Below, piece after piece: positions 38,598 to 47,886 of a stretch of DNA of 64,000 nt. The stretch covers positions 62,001 to 126,000 of the forward strand of contig JAGBCQ010000001.1 in NCBI GenBank assembly GCA_017937925.1. Direction: 5' to 3'. Position numbers and translations under genes: made by a program. Source of the stretch: Paraprevotella sp. Lineage in GTDB: Bacteria; Bacteroidota; Bacteroidia; Bacteroidales; Bacteroidaceae. The notes under the pieces are model-generated. The model was not told the origin of the DNA, made no database searches, and was given only the letters and a program-made list of their open reading frames with translations. How positions within the stretch are numbered: the first letter of the stretch is position 1; each line of letters opens with the position of its first letter.

Positions 38598-40637
38598 CTA
38601 TCCCACTTCTGAGCCGGGTTTAACCTCTCTGTCCACAGTTACAACGCTAAGCGTCTCGTCGAAGTTTACTGCCGACAGAATCATGCCCTGACTCTCTATG
38701 CCTTTCAATTTGCGTGGCGCAAGGTTGGCTATGAAACAAACTTGTTTGCCCACCAAATCCTCAGGATTATAATATTTTGCTATACCGCTCACGATGGTTC
38801 GGTTTTCCAATCCGTCGGCTATCTTAAAGCACAACAACTTATCAGCCTTTGGCACCTTGGTACATTCAAGCACCGTACCTACACGAATATCCAGTTTCTG
38901 GAAGTCCTCAAATGCGATGTTCTCACGAATCGGGTTCGCCTTGTAACTTGCTTCCTCATTGGCCTTCTTTGTGTCGAGCAACTTCTGCACTTGCGCTTCA
39001 ATAACCTCGTCCTCTATCTTCTCGAACAACAATTCAGGTTTCGCCAACTGATGTCCGGCCTTCAACAGGTCGGTACTGCCCAACTGAGTCCACTCAAAAC
39101 TTTCCATATTCAACATTCGGCGCAATTTCTCGCTGCTGAACGGCAAGAAAGGCTCAAATGCGATAGCAAGGTTGGCAGTGAGTTGCAAAGAGATATAAAT
39201 AATCGTCTTGACACGTTCCGGGTCGGTCTTGACCACCTTCCACGGTTCGCAGTCAGCGATGTACTTGTTTCCGATACGCGCCAAGTTCATAGCCTCTTTC
39301 TGCGCATCACGGAACTTGAACACATCCAACAACTCCTCCACTTTCTGTTTCACGTCCTTGAACTCATTCAGCGTTTCACGGTCATAGTCCGTCAGTTCGC
39401 CACAAACAGGCACTACACCGTCATAGTACTTCTGTGTGAGTTGCAACGCACGATTCACAAAGTTACCATAGACAGCCACCAACTCATTGTTGTTGCGCGC
39501 CTGGAAATCCTTCCATGTAAAGTCGTTATCCTTTGTTTCCGGAGCATTGGCAGTCAGCACGTAGCGCAACACATCTTGTTTGCCGGGGAAATCGCGCAGA
39601 TATTCATGCAACCAAACCGCCCAATTGCGGGATGTTGATATTTTGTCGCCCTCAAGATTCAGGAACTCATTGCTCGGTACGTTGTCGGGGAGGATAAAAC
39701 TACCCTCTGCCTTCAACATTGCAGGGAACACGATGCAATGGAACACGATATTGTCCTTGCCGATGAAATGAACCAAACGGGTTTCCGGGTCTTTCCACCA
39801 CTTCTCCCATGTGTCGGGCAACAACTCACGTGTGTTGCTGATATAACCGATAGGAGCATCGAACCACACATACAACACCTTGCCTTCAGCGCCCTCAACC
39901 GGTACCGGAATACCCCAATCAAGGTCACGACTCACGGCACGTGGTTGCAAGCCCATATCCAACCAGCTCTTGCACTGACCGTACACATTGTTACGCCACT
40001 CTTTGTGGTCTTCCAATATCCACTTGCTCAACCATTCTTCATGCTTATCCAAAGGCAGATACCAATGCTTCGTTTCTCGCATCACGGGAGCAGAACCGCT
40101 GATAGCGCTTTTCGGATTGATTAGGTCAGTGGGCGAAAGCGATGTTCCACACTTCTCACATTGGTCGCCATAAGCTCCCTCTGCATGGCAATGCGGACAT
40201 TCGCCGGTGATATAACGGTCTGCCAAGAAAGTCTGTGCCTCCTCGTCATAATATTGCATGGAGGTCTTCTCTACAAACTCACCCTTTTCATACAACTTAC
40301 GGAAAAAGTCGGAAGCTGTCCGGCGGTGTGTCTCCGAAGTAGTACGACTATACACATCGAACGAGATTCCAAACTCCTTGAATGAATCCTTTATCAACGT
40401 GTGGTAACGATCCACAACATCCTGCGGGGTTATGCCCTCTTTCTTAGCACGGATAGTAATGGGCACACCATGCTCGTCGGAACCGCCAATAAACAACACG
40501 TCCTCCTTTTTCAGACGGAGATAACGCACATAAATATCAGACGGCACATACACTCCGGCCAAGTGTCCTATATGTACCGGACCATTGGCATAGGGTAACG
40601 CCGATGTCACGGTTGTTCTCTTGAATTTCTTTTCCAT
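38598..40637 (-). CDS. metG: Methionyl-tRNA synthetase
   Basis: This class I synthetase charges both initiator and elongator tRNA-Met. It has 679 residues. The HIGH-type motif is [20 protein letters not shown] near residues 15-33. A zinc knuckle follows with CPHC and CEKC near 143-163. The KMSKS-type motif is [11 protein letters not shown] near 335. The C-terminal 110 residues form a tRNA-binding EMAP/Trbp111-like domain ([20 protein letters not shown]), typical of homodimeric MetRS. A -7-like box TAAGTTTG is at 40663-40670. Confidence 0.97.
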
Positions 40638-40662
40638 CAGATTCCTGTTTTTAATTTGAATG

Positions 40663-40670
40663 CAAACTTA
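40663..40670 (-). promoter_or_regulatory. Probable -7 box of metG
   Basis: TAAGTTTG on the minus strand matches TAnnTTTG, 26 bp before the metG ATG. The -33 region does not match well. Confidence 0.4.
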
Positions 40671-40799
40671 CACAAAAATCTCCGAATCCCATGCTCGTTT
40701 CCGAAAAAACGAAAACGGGAACGAAGATTTAAGTACTATTTTCTATTTACTCATGGACTAATATCACTACAAAATCCCATGTTTCACTGATACTTCTAT

Positions 40800-40846
40800 A
40801 AAAAAGAAGGCGTGCAAGAGAGGATAGGACCCAACTTGCACGCCTT
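40800..40846 (-). terminator. Intrinsic terminator after the small-protein gene
   Basis: On the minus strand a perfect 12-bp stem (AAGGCGTGCAAG with CTTGCACGCCTT) and 16-base loop are followed by CTTTTTT. It lies 23 bp after the small-protein stop and ends the GH30 transcript. Confidence 0.88.
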
Positions 40847-40868
40847 TACTAAAATCGATTTACCTATT

Positions 40869-41030
40869 CTACCAAATGCCTTGCCACGGATTAGTATTGA
40901 CGAGTGCATCAGCGCCATCCATAAGCTCGTTGCTGATGACTTGCTCGCTTACCTGAGAGGTTGCTATCATTTGTGTCGGAACTATATCGGCATAAGCAAC
41001 CAATGGAGTCGTATATTTTTTCTTTTTCAT
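40869..41030 (-). CDS. Small 53-residue protein downstream of the GH30 gene
   Basis: An ATG at 41030 opens a 53-codon frame ending in TAG. It starts MKKKKYTTPLVAYADIVPTQ and ends ALVNTNPWQGIW. It resembles short Bacteroidales proteins with a basic MKKKY start, a middle part around an MIA motif and a Trp-ended tail, whose function is unknown. It lies 24 bp after the GH30 stop, on the same strand, and a strong terminator follows 23 bp later, so the pair looks like one transcript. I see no signal peptide of usual type. A longer open frame on the opposite strand covers the same bases and is judged a shadow. Confidence 0.65.
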   Translation of the reverse strand: MKKKKYTTPLVAYADIVPTQMIATSQVSEQVISNELMDGADALVNTNPWQGIW

Positions 41031-41054
41031 AATTGTCGTGATTAATGGGTTATG

Positions 41055-44000
41055 TTATTTGAACAAGACTTTCTTACCGCCTTGTATATAAATGCCTCGC
41101 TTAGGTTGTTCGATACGACGGCCGGAGAGGTCGTATAAAACACCGTTCTCCGCCGGACGAACCAATGTTTCTTCTATAGCCGTCATATCATCCAACTTGA
41201 TAGAAAGCACATTGACCTCGTTCGCAAACATTGAGTTCGGAAGTGACAAATACGCTTTGCCACCGGCTAACGTACTGCTTTCCACAGCTTTTTTGAAACC
41301 TTCTGCGCTCAAGAAGAAATTAGTATTATCGCCCTCAGTCTGATACACCACGGTAGATGTTATAACACCTTTAAGGTAATTGGTAGTAGGAGCCGTTGCC
41401 TCTGCCGGTACTGCAATGCCATATACACCCGGTTCAGCTTTCAAATATACTCCTGTCAATGCCGGTATCACTTCTACCTTACTCAAAGTCACCTCCGCTC
41501 CTGTTGCTGACGATGCCACATAAGCCGTCACCTCACCTTTTGAGAAATCGAGCGGTATATCCGAACAAAATGTTGCCTTACCGGAATCGCCGATGGTTAC
41601 AGGGATTTCAGCTACCAAGCATTTCACATCATCAACATAAGCGAATGAATTCCAACCGGTATCGCCAAAGAAACCTATATTATCTATATTAAAGAATCCA
41701 CTGACGGTACGGTCTAAGTACACGGTTTCTCCATTAAGGTCGGTTATAATGATTCGAACAGCATCTTCCGAACCGATTAAAGTCACTCTACTACGAATCA
41801 AACCGGCATCGTTATTGGCATGATCCCCATTATTGACTGGCATCACAGCACCCATATTTTCTCCATTGACCTTAACTGTAGCGTGAGAAGCGTTCATCGA
41901 GTTGATAGAAACCTTGTCCGTTCCACCGTTTTTGAACCAAATACCTGCATCAACGCTGGCATCCAATGCTACGACCAATTCTATTTTCCATTTTGTTGCT
42001 GTTGAGAATGTTGGGTTATCAAACCATAGAGAAGTTGCTCCTCCGCAACCTACCCACAGCATTTCGGTAGTCACGCCACTTCCTGTTACTCCAAAGTTTC
42101 CTCCTGAAACACCGGTTGTAACACCTCCGTTAAAGTTAATTTCTTTCACTTGATACCAATTTCCGGCAGCGACTTGGGATGAACGCACCGCATTCATCGC
42201 ATACTCCAATTCAGTAGAAAGGTCAGCGAAATGAAGAGGATCTGTCAATGAATCTACCAATGGAGTTTGCTTCTCTATTACAGCCGAAAGTGCCAAACGA
42301 GGCGCTTCCTCATACAATCCATCTACATCCTTAACCATTTCCTGCGCCTCAGCCAACAAAGTTTCGTATGAAGCACGAGCCTCAGCAAGTTTTTGTGCCT
42401 GTTCCGCAGCGGCAGCCTCATCAGCGCCGTAACGATAAAGATGGAAATCAGTCACAGCATACCAGCCCTTTGTTCCACCTCCGGAAGTTGACGCGTAACC
42501 AAGACGGAGATATTGACCTTCGGTAAGTTCGACAGATTCTGTGGTCTGAAGTTCCCATGACAACACATCCCACGAATCATTCTGCTTAACCGGCGATACG
42601 ACTGTTTTTACTAAAGTTCCGTCCGACTCGTATAAAGACAAGTACAGATGTTGGTCGTTAATATTGCCTTCACCGCACACCGAAATACATGTGGCATAAT
42701 ATTCTCCGGCAGGGAGTCCCTTAATCTCCTGATAATTGTCCATAGAAGTAAATTCCGTTGACATACTGTTCAACGCCTGTTGCCCCAAGACCACCATAGC
42801 ATGATAATCTTCAGAGACTGCAACGTTATTGTTCGTCCAACCATCTAGTGAGGCGACAGTAGGATTTACTATAAAGTCGGTGCAGTCTGTTACTTCCTGA
42901 GCAGAAGAAACAATACCTTCTGCCGTTGCGATTGAGTCCACGACAGTTTCCTCGCCTACTACAAAAGTGTTGTAACTAGCTGCCGGCAAGTTCAACGTCA
43001 AATACTTGTCATTATCTATTGCCACTGTAAATGACTTCTCATTATTGGTATCATTTCCGGCCACTACAACATACGTTCCATTAGGTTGACGAGCCGCCAA
43101 AACAAGCGGTTGATGACTTGTCTTATTCAAAATCTGCGTACCGTCACCGATGAAATGACTATAATGTTTGTAAGCATAATACTCAGGAGTGTAGTACGCC
43201 ACGTTCTTATTCAAGTCAAGATGTAACAAGGCATTTTGCCACCAATTCATGAACGGACCACGACCGTTTCCGCCAAGGATAGAATTCCAATTGGTATAGG
43301 TCACGCAACCATTGTTCAGATAATGATGAATCAGCTCAAACGTATGTGTACCGGCTGCCCAATCGAAGGTTCCGCCACCACATTCGCTCTCTGACTGGAT
43401 AAATTCCAAGTCGGGATAACGTTCGCGCATGGTTCCTATTGCATTACGTCCTTCCCATTGAAAAGCGATACCATCGAACATTTCGGACAATTTCTTCCCG
43501 GCATAATCGGCATGTTTACTCTCATAGTTCAACACTACTTCATACACATCCTCCACTGCAGCCGTATTCATCGTACCTAACCAAACTTTAACACCGGGAT
43601 GATGCTCACGCATATAAGGAATCAAATAATCCGCATTGAAACGGGCTGTTGATAATGCCTCCCATGATGTATTGGGGTAATAGTTACAAGTATAAGCTTC
43701 ATTTTGATAGCACAATCCCGTCACAGGAATACCTTCTTCGCCATACGCATTTATAAATTTACTGAAATAAAGCGCATAGGCATTCAAGTAGTCCTCTTCC
43801 ATGATAAATTGCGTAGAGGTATAGGTTGGATAGGTCGTATCCAAACCGTTGCCGTAACCTGCACGGTTGGAATAATGATGACTGTGCTTCATCCATTGCG
43901 GTGGGCTCCATGGCGATGCCCAAAACTTCATGTCAGGATTCTGCTCTTGTGCTTTTTTGATAAAGGGGATGATAAACTGCTTGTCACGTTCTATGGTAAA

Positions 44001-44471
44001 ATGCTCCATCTGGAAGTCTGTCTCTCCAACGGGCATTTCGTCACAGCTATACCATGAACCGGACAAATCAATTCCCTCATTGCGTTCATGATATAAATCG
44101 TAGAAGTTTGCCTGACCGGCATAATCGCTCGCTCCTACCGGAATACGTCCTAAAGCAAAACGCAAATCGCCCGTAGGTGAGAACATATCAATAAAGAAGC
44201 GTTCTTGCGCTTCAGCCGGAATACGTGCTAAAGCATGCCAATCCAATTCATTGAAACAAGTACCCCATGCTTGGAACGTACTTTCCACATCATCGGATTT
44301 GTAAACCACTTGCGGTGTTCCTACTACGGTAGAACTCACAGGCACTCTCTTACCTTGCCACACTGCTTTTGAAGTCGTCGTAAACTGCAAGGCCTTATAA
44401 TTCTGCGCTACCACTTGAATAGAACAAGAAACGCCCAACAGCAACCATAAAAACAAATAATTTCTTTTCAT
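41055..44471 (-). CDS. Secreted GH30 family glycoside hydrolase
   Basis: This is a large secreted beta-glycosidase of family GH30 (glucosylceramidase-like fold). The start chosen is ATG 44471 (MKRNYLFLWLLLGVSCSIQV), which gives a signal peptide ending at VVAQ and 1138 residues; an upstream in-frame start is rejected. In this numbering the acid/base Glu is E258 (CYQNEAYT) and the nucleophile lies in IQSESECGGG (E361 or E363). A beta-sandwich follows the barrel, then two carbohydrate-binding-like domains (about 550-700 and 770-960). The C-terminus YDLSGRRIEQPKRGIYI resembles a type IX secretion sorting tail. The 53-residue protein follows. Confidence 0.88.
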   Translation of the reverse strand: MKRNYLFLWLLLGVSCSIQVVAQNYKALQFTTTSKAVWQGKRVPVSSTVVGTPQVVYKSDDVESTFQAWGTCFNELDWHALARIPAEAQERFFIDMFSPTGDLRFALGRIPVGASDYAGQANFYDLYHERNEGIDLSGSWYSCDEMPVGETDFQMEHFTIERDKQFIIPFIKKAQEQNPDMKFWASPWSPPQWMKHSHHYSNRAGYGNGLDTTYPTYTSTQFIMEEDYLNAYALYFSKFINAYGEEGIPVTGLCYQNEAYTCNYYPNTSWEALSTARFNADYLIPYMREHHPGVKVWLGTMNTAAVEDVYEVVLNYESKHADYAGKKLSEMFDGIAFQWEGRNAIGTMRERYPDLEFIQSESECGGGTFDWAAGTHTFELIHHYLNNGCVTYTNWNSILGGNGRGPFMNWWQNALLHLDLNKNVAYYTPEYYAYKHYSHFIGDGTQILNKTSHQPLVLAARQPNGTYVVVAGNDTNNEKSFTVAIDNDKYLTLNLPAASYNTFVVGEETVVDSIATAEGIVSSAQEVTDCTDFIVNPTVASLDGWTNNNVAVSEDYHAMVVLGQQALNSMSTEFTSMDNYQEIKGLPAGEYYATCISVCGEGNINDQHLYLSLYESDGTLVKTVVSPVKQNDSWDVLSWELQTTESVELTEGQYLRLGYASTSGGGTKGWYAVTDFHLYRYGADEAAAAEQAQKLAEARASYETLLAEAQEMVKDVDGLYEEAPRLALSAVIEKQTPLVDSLTDPLHFADLSTELEYAMNAVRSSQVAAGNWYQVKEINFNGGVTTGVSGGNFGVTGSGVTTEMLWVGCGGATSLWFDNPTFSTATKWKIELVVALDASVDAGIWFKNGGTDKVSINSMNASHATVKVNGENMGAVMPVNNGDHANNDAGLIRSRVTLIGSEDAVRIIITDLNGETVYLDRTVSGFFNIDNIGFFGDTGWNSFAYVDDVKCLVAEIPVTIGDSGKATFCSDIPLDFSKGEVTAYVASSATGAEVTLSKVEVIPALTGVYLKAEPGVYGIAVPAEATAPTTNYLKGVITSTVVYQTEGDNTNFFLSAEGFKKAVESSTLAGGKAYLSLPNSMFANEVNVLSIKLDDMTAIEETLVRPAENGVLYDLSGRRIEQPKRGIYIQGGKKVLFK

Positions 44472-44630
44472 ATCACTACATACATTTAAGGATTTTTCTG
44501 ACAGCAAATTAAAATGAAAAGGATATAAAAAGCAATAGGACATAAGCACAAATCCTACTCGTCAGTATTTTTTCTGACATAAATCAGTTTTTACGGACGG
44601 GAAGAAAAACTAATATAAAAATCCTATCGT

Positions 44631-46289
44631 TTATAAAGAATTTTCAATACTGTTTAATATATCTCCCGCAACACTGCTATCGAATAACCAATGACGCATA
44701 CCTCCATTGATATGTTGCACCTTGCCTGTTCTAAAATTAAATACATATACAGGACGAATTCGCCAAGAGTGATTGTAACGATTCTGCCAATCAAACATAC
44801 AAAATTCCCAATAACCTCCCCTTTCATTCCACCATTCTCCTGTGGTATATCCTTCTTTTTCGCCATACCTATTCAGAACAGCAGGATTACCGTATTGTCC
44901 TGCATTGGAATATACATGATATGGTGCTAAAGCATAATTGATAATATTGCCAAGTGAGACTCTGCACACAATCATTATGGGGTTGTTATCACTTAAACGA
45001 TATGAATCATGAGCATAGGTAATAGCAACCCTCCGCCTTGATGCAAAATAAACACCGATACCGCCCCAACTACTTTGACTTGCAGCAAAAGTTCCTTGCG
45101 TCCATTGAGCGTTTCTCTTTAATTCTTTATTGCGTTCACTACAACTTGTTATCATCTGCCCCGCAGTTAAGTCAGTGCCATGATACATCGTGACAGCCGG
45201 AATAAAAATGTCCACTACCGTCCATACTGCACCCTCAATAATAACTTGTCCACCGTGATAAATAGGATATTTTAAAAAACGATATGGCAACATTACGAGC
45301 CATCTCCACACATCTCCTGCACCTTCATCTTCAGAACAAGGTTGTAACACTTCATACGTTAGGTCGTACAATTCTGTAACTCCATAAACAAAAACATTGT
45401 AACCAATTGCATTGAAGAGCCGTAGCGGGGTTGTGGCAATATATAATAAGAATTGTACAGCTCTGAGAATATTACGCACTGGTTTCTTGTATTCCTCATC
45501 CAACCAACTGGTCTTGAACATATATCGCCAAGGTTCCGTCAAAATGTGTTGCAACCTATTTGACCAAAAAAGCGGAGCCGAAATAACTAAATAAATAAAC
45601 CATAATATATCTGCCCATTCGGCACCTAAACTGTCAATAATTTTGCGTAATCCAATGAATACTCCGAACGAAAGTCCTATCATTCCACCTAATTCGCCAT
45701 TGTCAAATAGCAGATGAAACGCAAGTGCCCCCACAAAATAAAAGAAGCCTAAAAATACCAACATTTCTACAATATCCTTCCAAAAAGCTAAGACCAATAG
45801 AACTATTAGAACAAGGAGAACTATTCTAACAATCTCCCAAATACCTCTGAAAAAATCTACGATAGAATCCCAAATATCAACACTATCATCAGTTATGGTC
45901 ATTTGGGGTGTTTGTGACTTTGGTTCTACGGGATTCTGGTATGTTACATATTGCATTGCCACATAACCTGTCCGGTTATTATAATCAATTTCTCCCCAAT
46001 GCCTTGATTGGCGATAAATGGTTGATTTTACTACAATATAAGAATTGGGATAAAGTTTACCAATTTTTGAATAGCTTGTTCCCGGGCCACTACGCACATT
46101 GAGCGTATTTGTCACACGACAATGGCCTGGATAAGTTTCTGCATTGCAAACTATTGCTTCACCCAAAAACACCGTTACGAATAATGTATAACGGAAGTAA
46201 TTTATCATCCTCTCCATAACCACATTGTTCATGCACCTAAGTGGCACGAATGATAGTAGAATTGCTATAAGGATGATTAGTATAATCAT
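44631..46289 (-). CDS. Membrane protein with SH3b domain and PARP-like ADP-ribosyltransferase domain
   Basis: I find no known name for this 552-residue protein. Starts at 46217 or 46208 (MERMINYFRY) are as likely as 46289, and would give a signal peptide ending near CNA (residue 50). Residues about 55-116 form a bacterial SH3 domain (TNTLNVRSGPGTSYSKIG). Hydrophobic segments lie at about 150-170, 173-196, 202-216 and 227-243. The C-terminal part looks like a PARP-type fold: H370 in MYHGTDL, Y414 in GIGVYFASRRRVAITYA, then PIMIVCRVSLGN, and E495 in GGYWEFCMFD. In PARPs these are the H-Y-E catalytic residues. The domain call is mine, by pattern only. It follows comM by 49 bp on the same strand. 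Confidence 0.7.
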   Translation of the reverse strand: MIILIILIAILLSFVPLRCMNNVVMERMINYFRYTLFVTVFLGEAIVCNAETYPGHCRVTNTLNVRSGPGTSYSKIGKLYPNSYIVVKSTIYRQSRHWGEIDYNNRTGYVAMQYVTYQNPVEPKSQTPQMTITDDSVDIWDSIVDFFRGIWEIVRIVLLVLIVLLVLAFWKDIVEMLVFLGFFYFVGALAFHLLFDNGELGGMIGLSFGVFIGLRKIIDSLGAEWADILWFIYLVISAPLFWSNRLQHILTEPWRYMFKTSWLDEEYKKPVRNILRAVQFLLYIATTPLRLFNAIGYNVFVYGVTELYDLTYEVLQPCSEDEGAGDVWRWLVMLPYRFLKYPIYHGGQVIIEGAVWTVVDIFIPAVTMYHGTDLTAGQMITSCSERNKELKRNAQWTQGTFAASQSSWGGIGVYFASRRRVAITYAHDSYRLSDNNPIMIVCRVSLGNIINYALAPYHVYSNAGQYGNPAVLNRYGEKEGYTTGEWWNERGGYWEFCMFDWQNRYNHSWRIRPVYVFNFRTGKVQHINGGMRHWLFDSSVAGDILNSIENSL

Positions 46290-46338
46290 GTTTTCTCCTA
46301 GAAATTATCAATCAGCATCAACAATGGGAATAGCGCAT

Positions 46339-47886
46339 TTAGGTTCCTCTTTCTGCCCAGTCATCTCTATCTAAGTTCCGATAACCAATAGCTTCTGCCA
46401 AATGATGCGTTTGTATGTTTTCACTTTCCTCCAAATCTGCAATGGTACGGGCTACCTTTAAGATACGGTCGTAGGCTCTAGCGGAGAGTTGCAAACGAGT
46501 CATCGCTGTACGCAACATCTCCGTACTTTGCTCATCAAGTTTAGCAAATTTACGGAGCAGTTGACTATTCATTTGAGCATTACAATGTACCCCCTTGCAA
46601 TCAGCATAACGATTAGCTTGCATCTGTCGAGCGCGAATCACTCTTTCACGAATAGTCGCGCTATTCTCACCGGGTGCTGTGCGTGACATTTCTTCAAAGG
46701 ACAAGGGAGTAATCTCTATCTGCAAATCGATACGGTCAAGTAACGGACCGGAAATTTTATGTAGGTAACGATGAATCTGCCCGGGAGTACAAACACAAGA
46801 CTTTTGAGGATGGTTATAATAACCGCACGGACAAGGATTCATTGAAGCCACAAACATAAAAGAACAAGGATAGGTAACACTATATTTGGCACGGGCGATA
46901 TTGATTTGTCTATCCTCAAGTGGTTGACGCAACACCTCAAGTACCGAGCGAGAAAATTCCGGCAACTCATCACAAAAAAGAACACCACTGTGCGCCAAAC
47001 TGACCTCGCCCGGCTGCGGATTCTGTCCCCCGCCAACAAGGGCGACTTGTGAAATGGTATGATGCGGTGACCTAAACGGACGTTGAGCTATCAAAGAACA
47101 ATCTTGACTTAACTTGCCGGCAACTGAATGGATTTGTGTTGTTTCCAAACTTTCGGAAAGAGACAAAGGAGGAAGAATGGAAGGCAAACGTTTTGCCATC
47201 ATAGACTTTCCACTTCCCGGAGGACCTATCATAATGAGATTATGTCCGCCAGCAGCCGCCACCTCTAATGCTCTCTTAACATGAGCTTGCCCTTTGACAT
47301 CCGCAAAATCAAAGTCAAAATTTGATTGCTGGGCATAAAACTCTGCACGCGTATCCACCTCTGTACATTCCAACACATCCTCACCATTCAAGAACTGAAC
47401 AACTTGATTCATGTGCTTCGCCCCAAAAACTTTCAATTGATTCACTACCGCAGCTTCTCGAACATTTTGTTCCGGAACAATGAGATTTTCAAAACCCATT
47501 TCACGCGCTTTTATAGCAATAGGCAAAGCCCCTTTAACAGGTTGTAAAGTTCCATCTAAACTCAGTTCACCTATCATCATAGTTCGCTCCAAGTTGTCAA
47601 GTTTTACCTTCTCTTCGGTAGCCAATATGCCAATTGCTAATGGCAAATCGTAACCGGCACCTTCCTTACGAATATCTGCCGGTGCCATATTTACCACTAA
47701 TTGTTTCGTAGGGAAACGATAACCACTATTCTCTACGGCTGCCACTATACGCTCATGGCTCTCCTTTACTGCATTATCAGGCAATCCAACCAAGAAAAAC
47801 TTTATTCCCCTTGATGAATTAACCTCAATTGTCACAGGTATAGCCGAAAGTCCTTGCACTGAAGCACTAAATACTTTTACAAGCAT
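46339..47886 (-). CDS. comM: YifB/ComM family Mg-chelatase-like AAA+ ATPase
   Basis: ComM is a hexameric helicase that promotes branch migration during natural transformation in some bacteria. It has 515 residues, a normal length. The N-terminal Lon-protease-like fold (about 1-170) is followed by the AAA+ domain with Walker A MIGPPGSGKSMMAKRLP near 215, and the Walker B-type segment VLFCDELPEFSR. The zinc-like CPCGYYNHPQKSC loop follows. It lies 6 bp after the thioredoxin-like gene. The role in transformation is by family; DNA uptake by this organism is not shown here. Confidence 0.94.
   Translation of the reverse strand: MLVKVFSASVQGLSAIPVTIEVNSSRGIKFFLVGLPDNAVKESHERIVAAVENSGYRFPTKQLVVNMAPADIRKEGAGYDLPLAIGILATEEKVKLDNLERTMMIGELSLDGTLQPVKGALPIAIKAREMGFENLIVPEQNVREAAVVNQLKVFGAKHMNQVVQFLNGEDVLECTEVDTRAEFYAQQSNFDFDFADVKGQAHVKRALEVAAAGGHNLIMIGPPGSGKSMMAKRLPSILPPLSLSESLETTQIHSVAGKLSQDCSLIAQRPFRSPHHTISQVALVGGGQNPQPGEVSLAHSGVLFCDELPEFSRSVLEVLRQPLEDRQINIARAKYSVTYPCSFMFVASMNPCPCGYYNHPQKSCVCTPGQIHRYLHKISGPLLDRIDLQIEITPLSFEEMSRTAPGENSATIRERVIRARQMQANRYADCKGVHCNAQMNSQLLRKFAKLDEQSTEMLRTAMTRLQLSARAYDRILKVARTIADLEESENIQTHHLAEAIGYRNLDRDDWAERGT

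Follow-up and report, generated by a model that had tools for sequence, protein, structure and literature searches.

The window, i.e. the whole stretch of 64,000 nucleotides of Paraprevotella sp. DNA that was analysed, carries on its minus strand a gene encoding an SH3b domain, several hydrophobic segments and a PARP-like ADP-ribosyltransferase (ART) domain. Its open reading frame has 552 codons and an ATG start, and with the stop codon it occupies exactly the coordinates assigned to it in the first-pass annotation (Table 1). Its neighbours, likewise on the minus strand, are comM (46339-47886), which it follows at 49 bp, and a large gene with a GTG start (41055-44549), which it precedes by 81 bp; the genes were named by eye. 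The sequence AGGAGA is found close 5' of the first ATG of the gene. The N-terminus of the homologue at locus L004 starts at approximately residue 25 of the window protein in the alignment, and because homologues such as this one begin there, the true start, followed by a signal-peptide-like stretch, may be M25 or M28. A scan for promoter-like and terminator-like sites returned 14 of the former against a shuffle mean of 7.6 and zero of the latter, which gave nothing usable.

Table 1. Features of the SH3b/ART gene in the window
Feature	Coordinates	Strand	Basis
Whole gene, SH3b + membrane segments + PARP-like ART	44631..46289	-	552 codons plus stop
Signal-peptide-like stretch ahead of SH3b, residues 28-50	46140..46208	-	Aligned with L004 and L006 N-termini; putative cleavage after IVCNA, by eye
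SH3b domain (SH3_3), residues 62-115	45945..46106	-	Pfam E 6.8e-10; PDB SH3b chains 2krs, 2kq8; pLDDT ~80-85
Three hydrophobic segments, proposed membrane-crossing, residues 150-221	45627..45842	-	Hydropathy of window protein and L002-L006; loop charges; borders by eye
Conserved proline-broken hydrophobic/amphipathic segments, residues 226-366	45192..45614	-	Invariant columns over 12 sequences
PARP-like ADP-ribosyltransferase domain, residues 361-552	44634..45209	-	Pfam PARP; alignment A5; PDB profile search
H370 codon, motif YHGT	45180..45182	-	Invariant 12/12
Y414 codon, motif GxGxYF	45048..45050	-	Invariant 12/12
E495 codon, motif WE[FY]CxxD	44805..44807	-	Invariant 12/12

The SH3b domain proposed earlier for the N-terminal part is confirmed by the Pfam family SH3_3 (PF08239), which matches with 39.4 bits against a cut-off of 27. 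In NCBIfam the better matches of the window protein are SH3b-containing wall-binding proteins, all far under their cut-offs; in PHROGs they are an amidase, over the SH3b part (E 4e-7), and one unknown family (E 1.3e-4), the rest being at chance level. The hydropathy peaks (overlaps merged) fall on residues 2-20, 150-168, 200-221, 217-246 and 349-367, and a further one (437-455) lies inside the ART domain. Those at 2-20 and 150-168 are strong (mean Kyte-Doolittle value of 2.88 for 150-168), while those at ~200-246 and 349-367 are weaker. The earlier count of at least four membrane segments is fair by these peaks, the number of segments truly crossing the membrane being uncertain.

The membrane core and the ART domain form a constant unit across the 13 loci of the family described below. 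The SH3b domain is found in nine of them (in L070 just under the Pfam cut-off) and was not found by Pfam in L002, L003, L005 and L069; SH3b sensing is therefore not essential to the family. Four members (L002, L003, L068 and L069) carry an additional C-terminal hydrophobic segment. Invariant positions of the membrane part, as compared over 12 proteins, include P239, N244, P253-R255, T287-R290, N293-A294, Y297-N298, R337, W356, D360 and P364. A proline-broken unit may be repeated in this part of the protein (window 45192-45614; ISAPLFWSN, ATTPLRLFN, MLPYRFLKY): in a test of three pairs of blocks, picked by eye, 0, 1 and 7 of 60 shuffles scored at least as high as the real sequence, which sets the repeat only partly apart from shuffled sequence. 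Loop 196-202 is acidic (0 K+R, 2 D+E) and stretch 243-272 is basic (6 K+R, 4 D+E); stretch 290-330 is acidic as well (2 K+R, 7 D+E) and does not fit a simple positive-inside reading. The loop charges thus lean only weakly to an ART domain on the cytosolic side. The location of NAD+ is the stronger argument: NAD+ is cytosolic, and because of this the ART domain would be placed at the cytosolic face.

The C-terminal part had been read as a PARP-type domain with H370, Y414 and E495 in the catalytic positions, and these residues with their spacings of 44 and 81 are exact in the window protein. The comparison with the Pfam PARP family (PF00644) that the first-pass annotation had proposed as a check gave a PARP match on residues 409-457, with E of 3.7e-4 and 20.5 bits, under the curated cut-off of 26.7. 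The same family matches all 13 loci (E 2e-6 to 0.011), and its curated cut-off is passed by three of them: L004 (27.9 bits), L006 (27.8 bits) and L070 (as L097, 27.6 bits); the L004 and L006 proteins differ in 8 of 521 residues. H370, Y414 and E495 are invariant in the 12 aligned members, whose identity to the window domain is as low as 39%. The alignment omits L012, a copy split over two frames in which all three motifs are present. Because the family matches in all 13 members and the triad is invariant in 12 of 12, the PARP match in the window protein is above chance, and the PARP-type reading of the C-terminus is supported. Within the family the triad is spaced by 36-47 (H-Y) and 71-81 (Y-E) residues, and the Y-E distance is 79-81 for the seven members found first and 71-81 for the five added afterwards; in four fetched bacterial PARPs the spacings are 34 and 82.

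A search of 177,635 PDB sequences with the 12-row profile (A5) placed PARP4 first, with an E of 0.016 that is not significant alone. PARPs make up 9 of the 16 sequences with E <= 10, with PARP13, PARP10 and PARP2 further down; the other seven are four NAD-hydrolase or plant resistance-protein chains, which we take to be TIR proteins, MCP hydrolase in two forms and a sulfatase. The result depends on the rows of the profile: with 7 rows the best sequence was PARP13 (ZC3HAV1, E 0.21), and with 6 rows there were zero PARPs. Searches of the PDB by phmmer gave zero matches for the ART domain of L004, and for the whole window protein SH3b chains only and no PARP. The AlphaFold models, both made from 6 input sequences (window, L002-L006), are too poor to read a fold or pocket, the mean pLDDT being 47.3 for the full length and 32.7 for the ART domain alone; the SH3b part alone is fair.

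Profile-profile comparison by hhalign was made with several groups of proteins. The bacterial PARP set comprised four (L042-L045) of the five proteins over the PF00644 cut-off; the fifth, L046 (33.5 bits), was omitted, its frame having been missed by the motif filter. A protein above this cut-off is encoded by 5 of the 345 genomes scanned from the phylum and by none of the 247 from the order. Against the four bacterial PARPs the probability was 1.7% with 7 rows and 3.2% with 12 rows, both alignments being shallow; of 60 column shuffles, 2 reached as high a score. When the alignment was forced, the H and Y motifs could at best be paired, but not the E motif. KptA-like proteins gave 4.3% and 5.9%. 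The sole standout was a group of short proteins with an HGT motif, at 73.6% (7 rows) and 79.9% (12 rows) over the H and Y motifs only. These proteins (L033, L035, L039 and L040), from the order of the window, are stand-alone frames of ~190-220 aa with HGT and GxG[VI]YF motifs and weak PARP matches, and theirs is the best profile similarity to the ART domain of the window. The pattern E[FY]..[FY]D arose in 110 (window), 46 (L011) and 204 (L004) of 100,000 shuffles; little weight is given to this test because the pattern was chosen after seeing the sequence. Weighing the family-wide PARP matches and the invariant triad along with these null results, we consider it very probable that the C-terminal part is a true H-Y-E ART domain, and probable that the PARP-like domain is enzymatically active.

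The family comprises 13 loci, found in named Bacteroidales or in genomes of the order of the window: the window, L002-L006, L011, L012 and L068-L072, with L004 and L006 counted as separate. The scan of GTDB contigs gave five relatives (L002-L006), all of them from metagenome assemblies, under the labels Bacteroidales, Bacteroidaceae, Prevotellaceae or Prevotella. L003-L005 are labelled as coming from the digestive tract of goat or yak, and L006 is RUG11335, a name whose prefix presumably denotes a rumen genome. L011 and L012 were added from the order, in which 3 of 393 genomes match, the window's own included; L068-L072 were added by the genome searches. At family level 37 of 399 genomes match the profile, and the match covers the ART domain in eight of them, namely the own genome, G1139, G992, G869, G1153, G834, G1002 and G1148; G1139 and G992 encode proteins identical to those of L004 and L006. 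In G990 the match spans 35 C-terminal positions only, and in the remaining 28 genomes it is confined to the N-terminal SH3b and the first membrane part. Within the genus the own genome is the only one of 18 to match, with no match in the 17 others, and the phylum sample likewise returned only the own genome (1 of 395). No family match was found in the viral contigs, plasmids or phages searched. Since the genome of the window is 78.6% complete, absences in it are weak. The copy at L012 (L012:7116-8463, in G141) consists of two overlapping frames of 376 and 89 codons, for which a frameshift in the gene or a fault of the assembly may account; its pieces were searched separately, unjoined.

The gene had been described as part of a run of core genes, which does not agree with the comparison within the genus: comM is present in 18 of 18 genomes, and the ART gene is absent from its flank (up to 1.5 kb) in all 17 others. 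In 5 of these 17 metG directly follows comM. The comM-metG interval (window 38598-47886) is a variable site, occupied here by the ART gene and a large gene of secreted type. At some other loci, too, the surroundings look housekeeping-like by eye, with acetate kinase at L012, aroE at L005, and the ruvB/coaD and dxr/rimM regions at L095 and L098. Predicted genes of at least 80 aa around the 13 loci were compared by BLASTP, to which L072 adds little because its contig has only one other such frame. The comparison showed neither a neighbour shared throughout the family nor an immunity gene or antidote, in agreement with the earlier remark that an adjacent partner is not obvious. Thus the ART gene is accessory in its behaviour, found at varying sites and with no fixed partner, as follows from the differing loci, the lack of a common neighbour and its absence beside comM in the 17 genomes.

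The surroundings of L004 and L006 are nearly identical, with eight genes common around the locus, the ART gene included. Two genes lie upstream of the ART locus in L004 (L004:365-5127): one has matches to nSTAND1, TIR and hexapeptide families, the other encodes a TIR-methyltransferase. In L006 two other genes stand in their place, despite the near-identical ART protein. At L005 a sulfatase-family gene with a long hydrophobic N-terminus (L005:7263-9221) shares four bases with the end of the ART gene, and a gene 5 kb from the ART gene weakly matches (29%) a large gene near the ART gene of L098. Other neighbours in common are AAA+ genes (~35% identity) and an HD-like ORF, both in L002 and L003. 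The AAA+ genes near the ART genes of L002 and L004 differ in type, for which reason the AAA+ gene was rejected as a family partner; those of L003 and L006 are linked to them by BLAST. The HD-like ORF overlaps the ART gene in L002 and L003 but in no further one of the 13 loci by tblastn, and was rejected on this ground. The Pfam HD family matches this ORF in L003 with 20.6 bits, under the cut-off of 22, and does not match it in L002. Homologues of the ORF occur in 7 of 61 relatives, one of them strong and full-length and none with an ART match; the genome of the window contains none. An ADP-ribosyl glycohydrolase (PF03747) is encoded in each of the three genomes tested and a macrodomain in one of the three, neither near the ART gene.

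By comparison of coding sequences, the gene is under purifying selection, because dN is low relative to dS in the pairs L002/L003 (dN 0.085, dS 2.6, near saturation) and L004/L006 (dN 0.007, dS 0.046, with the ART part unchanged). In all five pairs compared the membrane part has a higher dN than the ART part; for the other three pairs dS was saturated and not computable.

Taken together, we hold with modest confidence that the protein is an ADP-ribosyltransferase of the PARP (H-Y-E) type that is tethered to the membrane rather than secreted, is oriented to the cytosol and, upon envelope disturbance, acts on the cell that makes it. This reading is built on the domain content, the conserved putative catalytic residues, the constant membrane-ART unit and the neighbourhoods with no common partner; from these we infer topology, sensing, activity, target and outcome. 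The N-terminus would be exported, which would bring the SH3b domain into the periplasm, probably in touch with the cell wall. The hydrophobic segments would hold the protein in the inner membrane with the catalytic domain at the cytosolic face. A change in the membrane or wall could then be relayed via the conserved membrane core, so that the catalytic domain is released or positioned and adds ADP-ribose to a target in the same cell. The outcome may be regulation or self-limitation in defence.

It is conceivable, and suggested here tentatively, that the protein works as a transmembrane ADP-ribosylation receptor, in which the periplasmic wall-binding domain and the membrane core switch the cytosolic PARP-type enzyme on and off, and the state of the envelope is written as ADP-ribose marks on the cell's own molecules. 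The members devoid of SH3b would then sense via the membrane core itself. If this is true, transmembrane signalling would be added to the possible roles of bacterial PARPs, and a single gene with no partner seen would make a compact system in which to study how ADP-ribosylation might be controlled by envelope signals.

Somewhat less likely is a role in defence, where damage of the envelope by a phage or competitor would trigger the same enzyme and ADP-ribosylation would halt the cell (abortive infection), as with other ART defence effectors. The sporadic accessory distribution at family, order and phylum level fits such a role, as do the nSTAND1-TIR and TIR-methyltransferase genes of L004; moreover, an ART seen with no antidote gene would be expected to be tightly gated. 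However, the window protein matched 0 PADLOC families at E <= 10, and the TIR genes do not recur, L006 sharing the eight genes with L004 but lacking both of them. The neighbourhoods that look housekeeping-like by eye (window, L005, L012, L095 and L098) also speak against defence.

That the domain is merely ART-like and serves as an NAD+ hydrolase, a sensor of NAD+ or ADP-ribose, or a pseudoenzyme, with no transferase activity, appears unlikely. Eight residues after the PARP tyrosine a serine contacts and holds nicotinamide, and this position is Ser in PARP4, PARP13 and the four bacterial PARPs and Ala (Ala422) in all 12 members of the family; the weak overall similarity and the failure of the profile-profile comparison point in the same direction. 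On the other side stand the retention of H, Y and E in all 12 members at such low identities and the lower dN of the ART part in the five pairs. That the protein is delivered as a toxin, by contact or by secretion, and poisons neighbouring cells with its ART is very improbable: passages of PMC3482391 describe PARP-like ART domains as tips of polymorphic toxins, but the Pfam, NCBIfam and PHROGs scans found no delivery or processing domain in the window protein, the C-terminus is constant rather than variable, and the ART shares its chain with several conserved membrane segments. The contact toxin considered in the first-pass annotation is unlikely because neither a delivery domain nor an immunity gene was seen.

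Proteins with a similar N-terminal part occur in the family of the window. Nine of ten inspected loci with N-terminal-only matches encode, by eye, a signal-like start, SH3b and hydrophobic segments, followed by varied C-termini. Like the window protein, the proteins of L102-L110 have these elements in the same order; unlike it, they lack the ART domain and differ in their C-termini. The minus-strand gene L100:6589-8741 combines WD40 repeats with a hydrophobic segment and a start that looks TIR-like by eye. The gene after it is separate and encodes a signal-like start, SH3b and two hydrophobic segments. The product of this second gene matches the N-terminal part of the family profile with E of 7e-35, far better than the next SH3b-only protein (4e-12); the sensor module of the family may exist here as a protein on its own, next to another possible consumer of NAD.

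CmdTAC has a chaperone and an antitoxin partner; in contrast, the window family has membrane segments, and no such partner was seen. What the family would have in common with CmdTAC and other ART defence effectors, as portrayed in PMC11618068, is an ADP-ribosyltransferase used within the cell. The Tox-ART-PARP polymorphic toxins also contain a PARP-like H-Y-E ART, as the toxin domain, and are secreted and known chiefly from Actinobacteria according to the relevant part of PMC3482391, whereas in the window family no delivery domain or immunity gene was seen. PARP16/ARTD15 of animals is another membrane-anchored PARP, with a cytosolic catalytic domain (passages of PMC3372510). In PARP16 a single C-terminal anchor follows the catalytic domain, while in the window protein SH3b comes first, then several segments and then the ART; the likeness is one of membrane anchoring and would not imply common ancestry.

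A further comparison is with the bacterial PARPs. The part of PMC4245714 devoted to them counts 28, mostly WGR-PARP, in WGR-PARP, PARP_reg and PARP-only forms; together with passages of PMC5966428 it portrays them as mostly WGR-linked and scattered by horizontal transfer. The latter passages name WGR, PARP_reg and PARP_cat as the domains; they also mention a single protein whose N-terminal tail of 350 residues is unassigned. Section 3.5 of PMC4245714 and the passages of PMC5966428 make no mention of SH3b or a membrane part, and the best-ranked titles and abstracts, mostly from outside subscription journals, describe no bacterial protein joining SH3b, membrane segments and a PARP-like ART. WGR and PARP_reg are absent from the 10 families matched (E <= 1) by the 12 proteins of set A6. 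The window family resembles the bacterial PARPs (WGR-PARP and WGR-PARP_reg-PARP, e.g. Herpetosiphon aurantiacus and Clostridioides difficile CD160) in the Pfam PARP match, the H-Y-E triad, the Tyr-Glu spacing of ~80 and the sporadic distribution, and differs from them in having no WGR or PARP_reg match, in the membrane segments, in the SH3b domain of most members, in the very weak similarity and in the replacement of Ser by Ala at the eighth position after the tyrosine.
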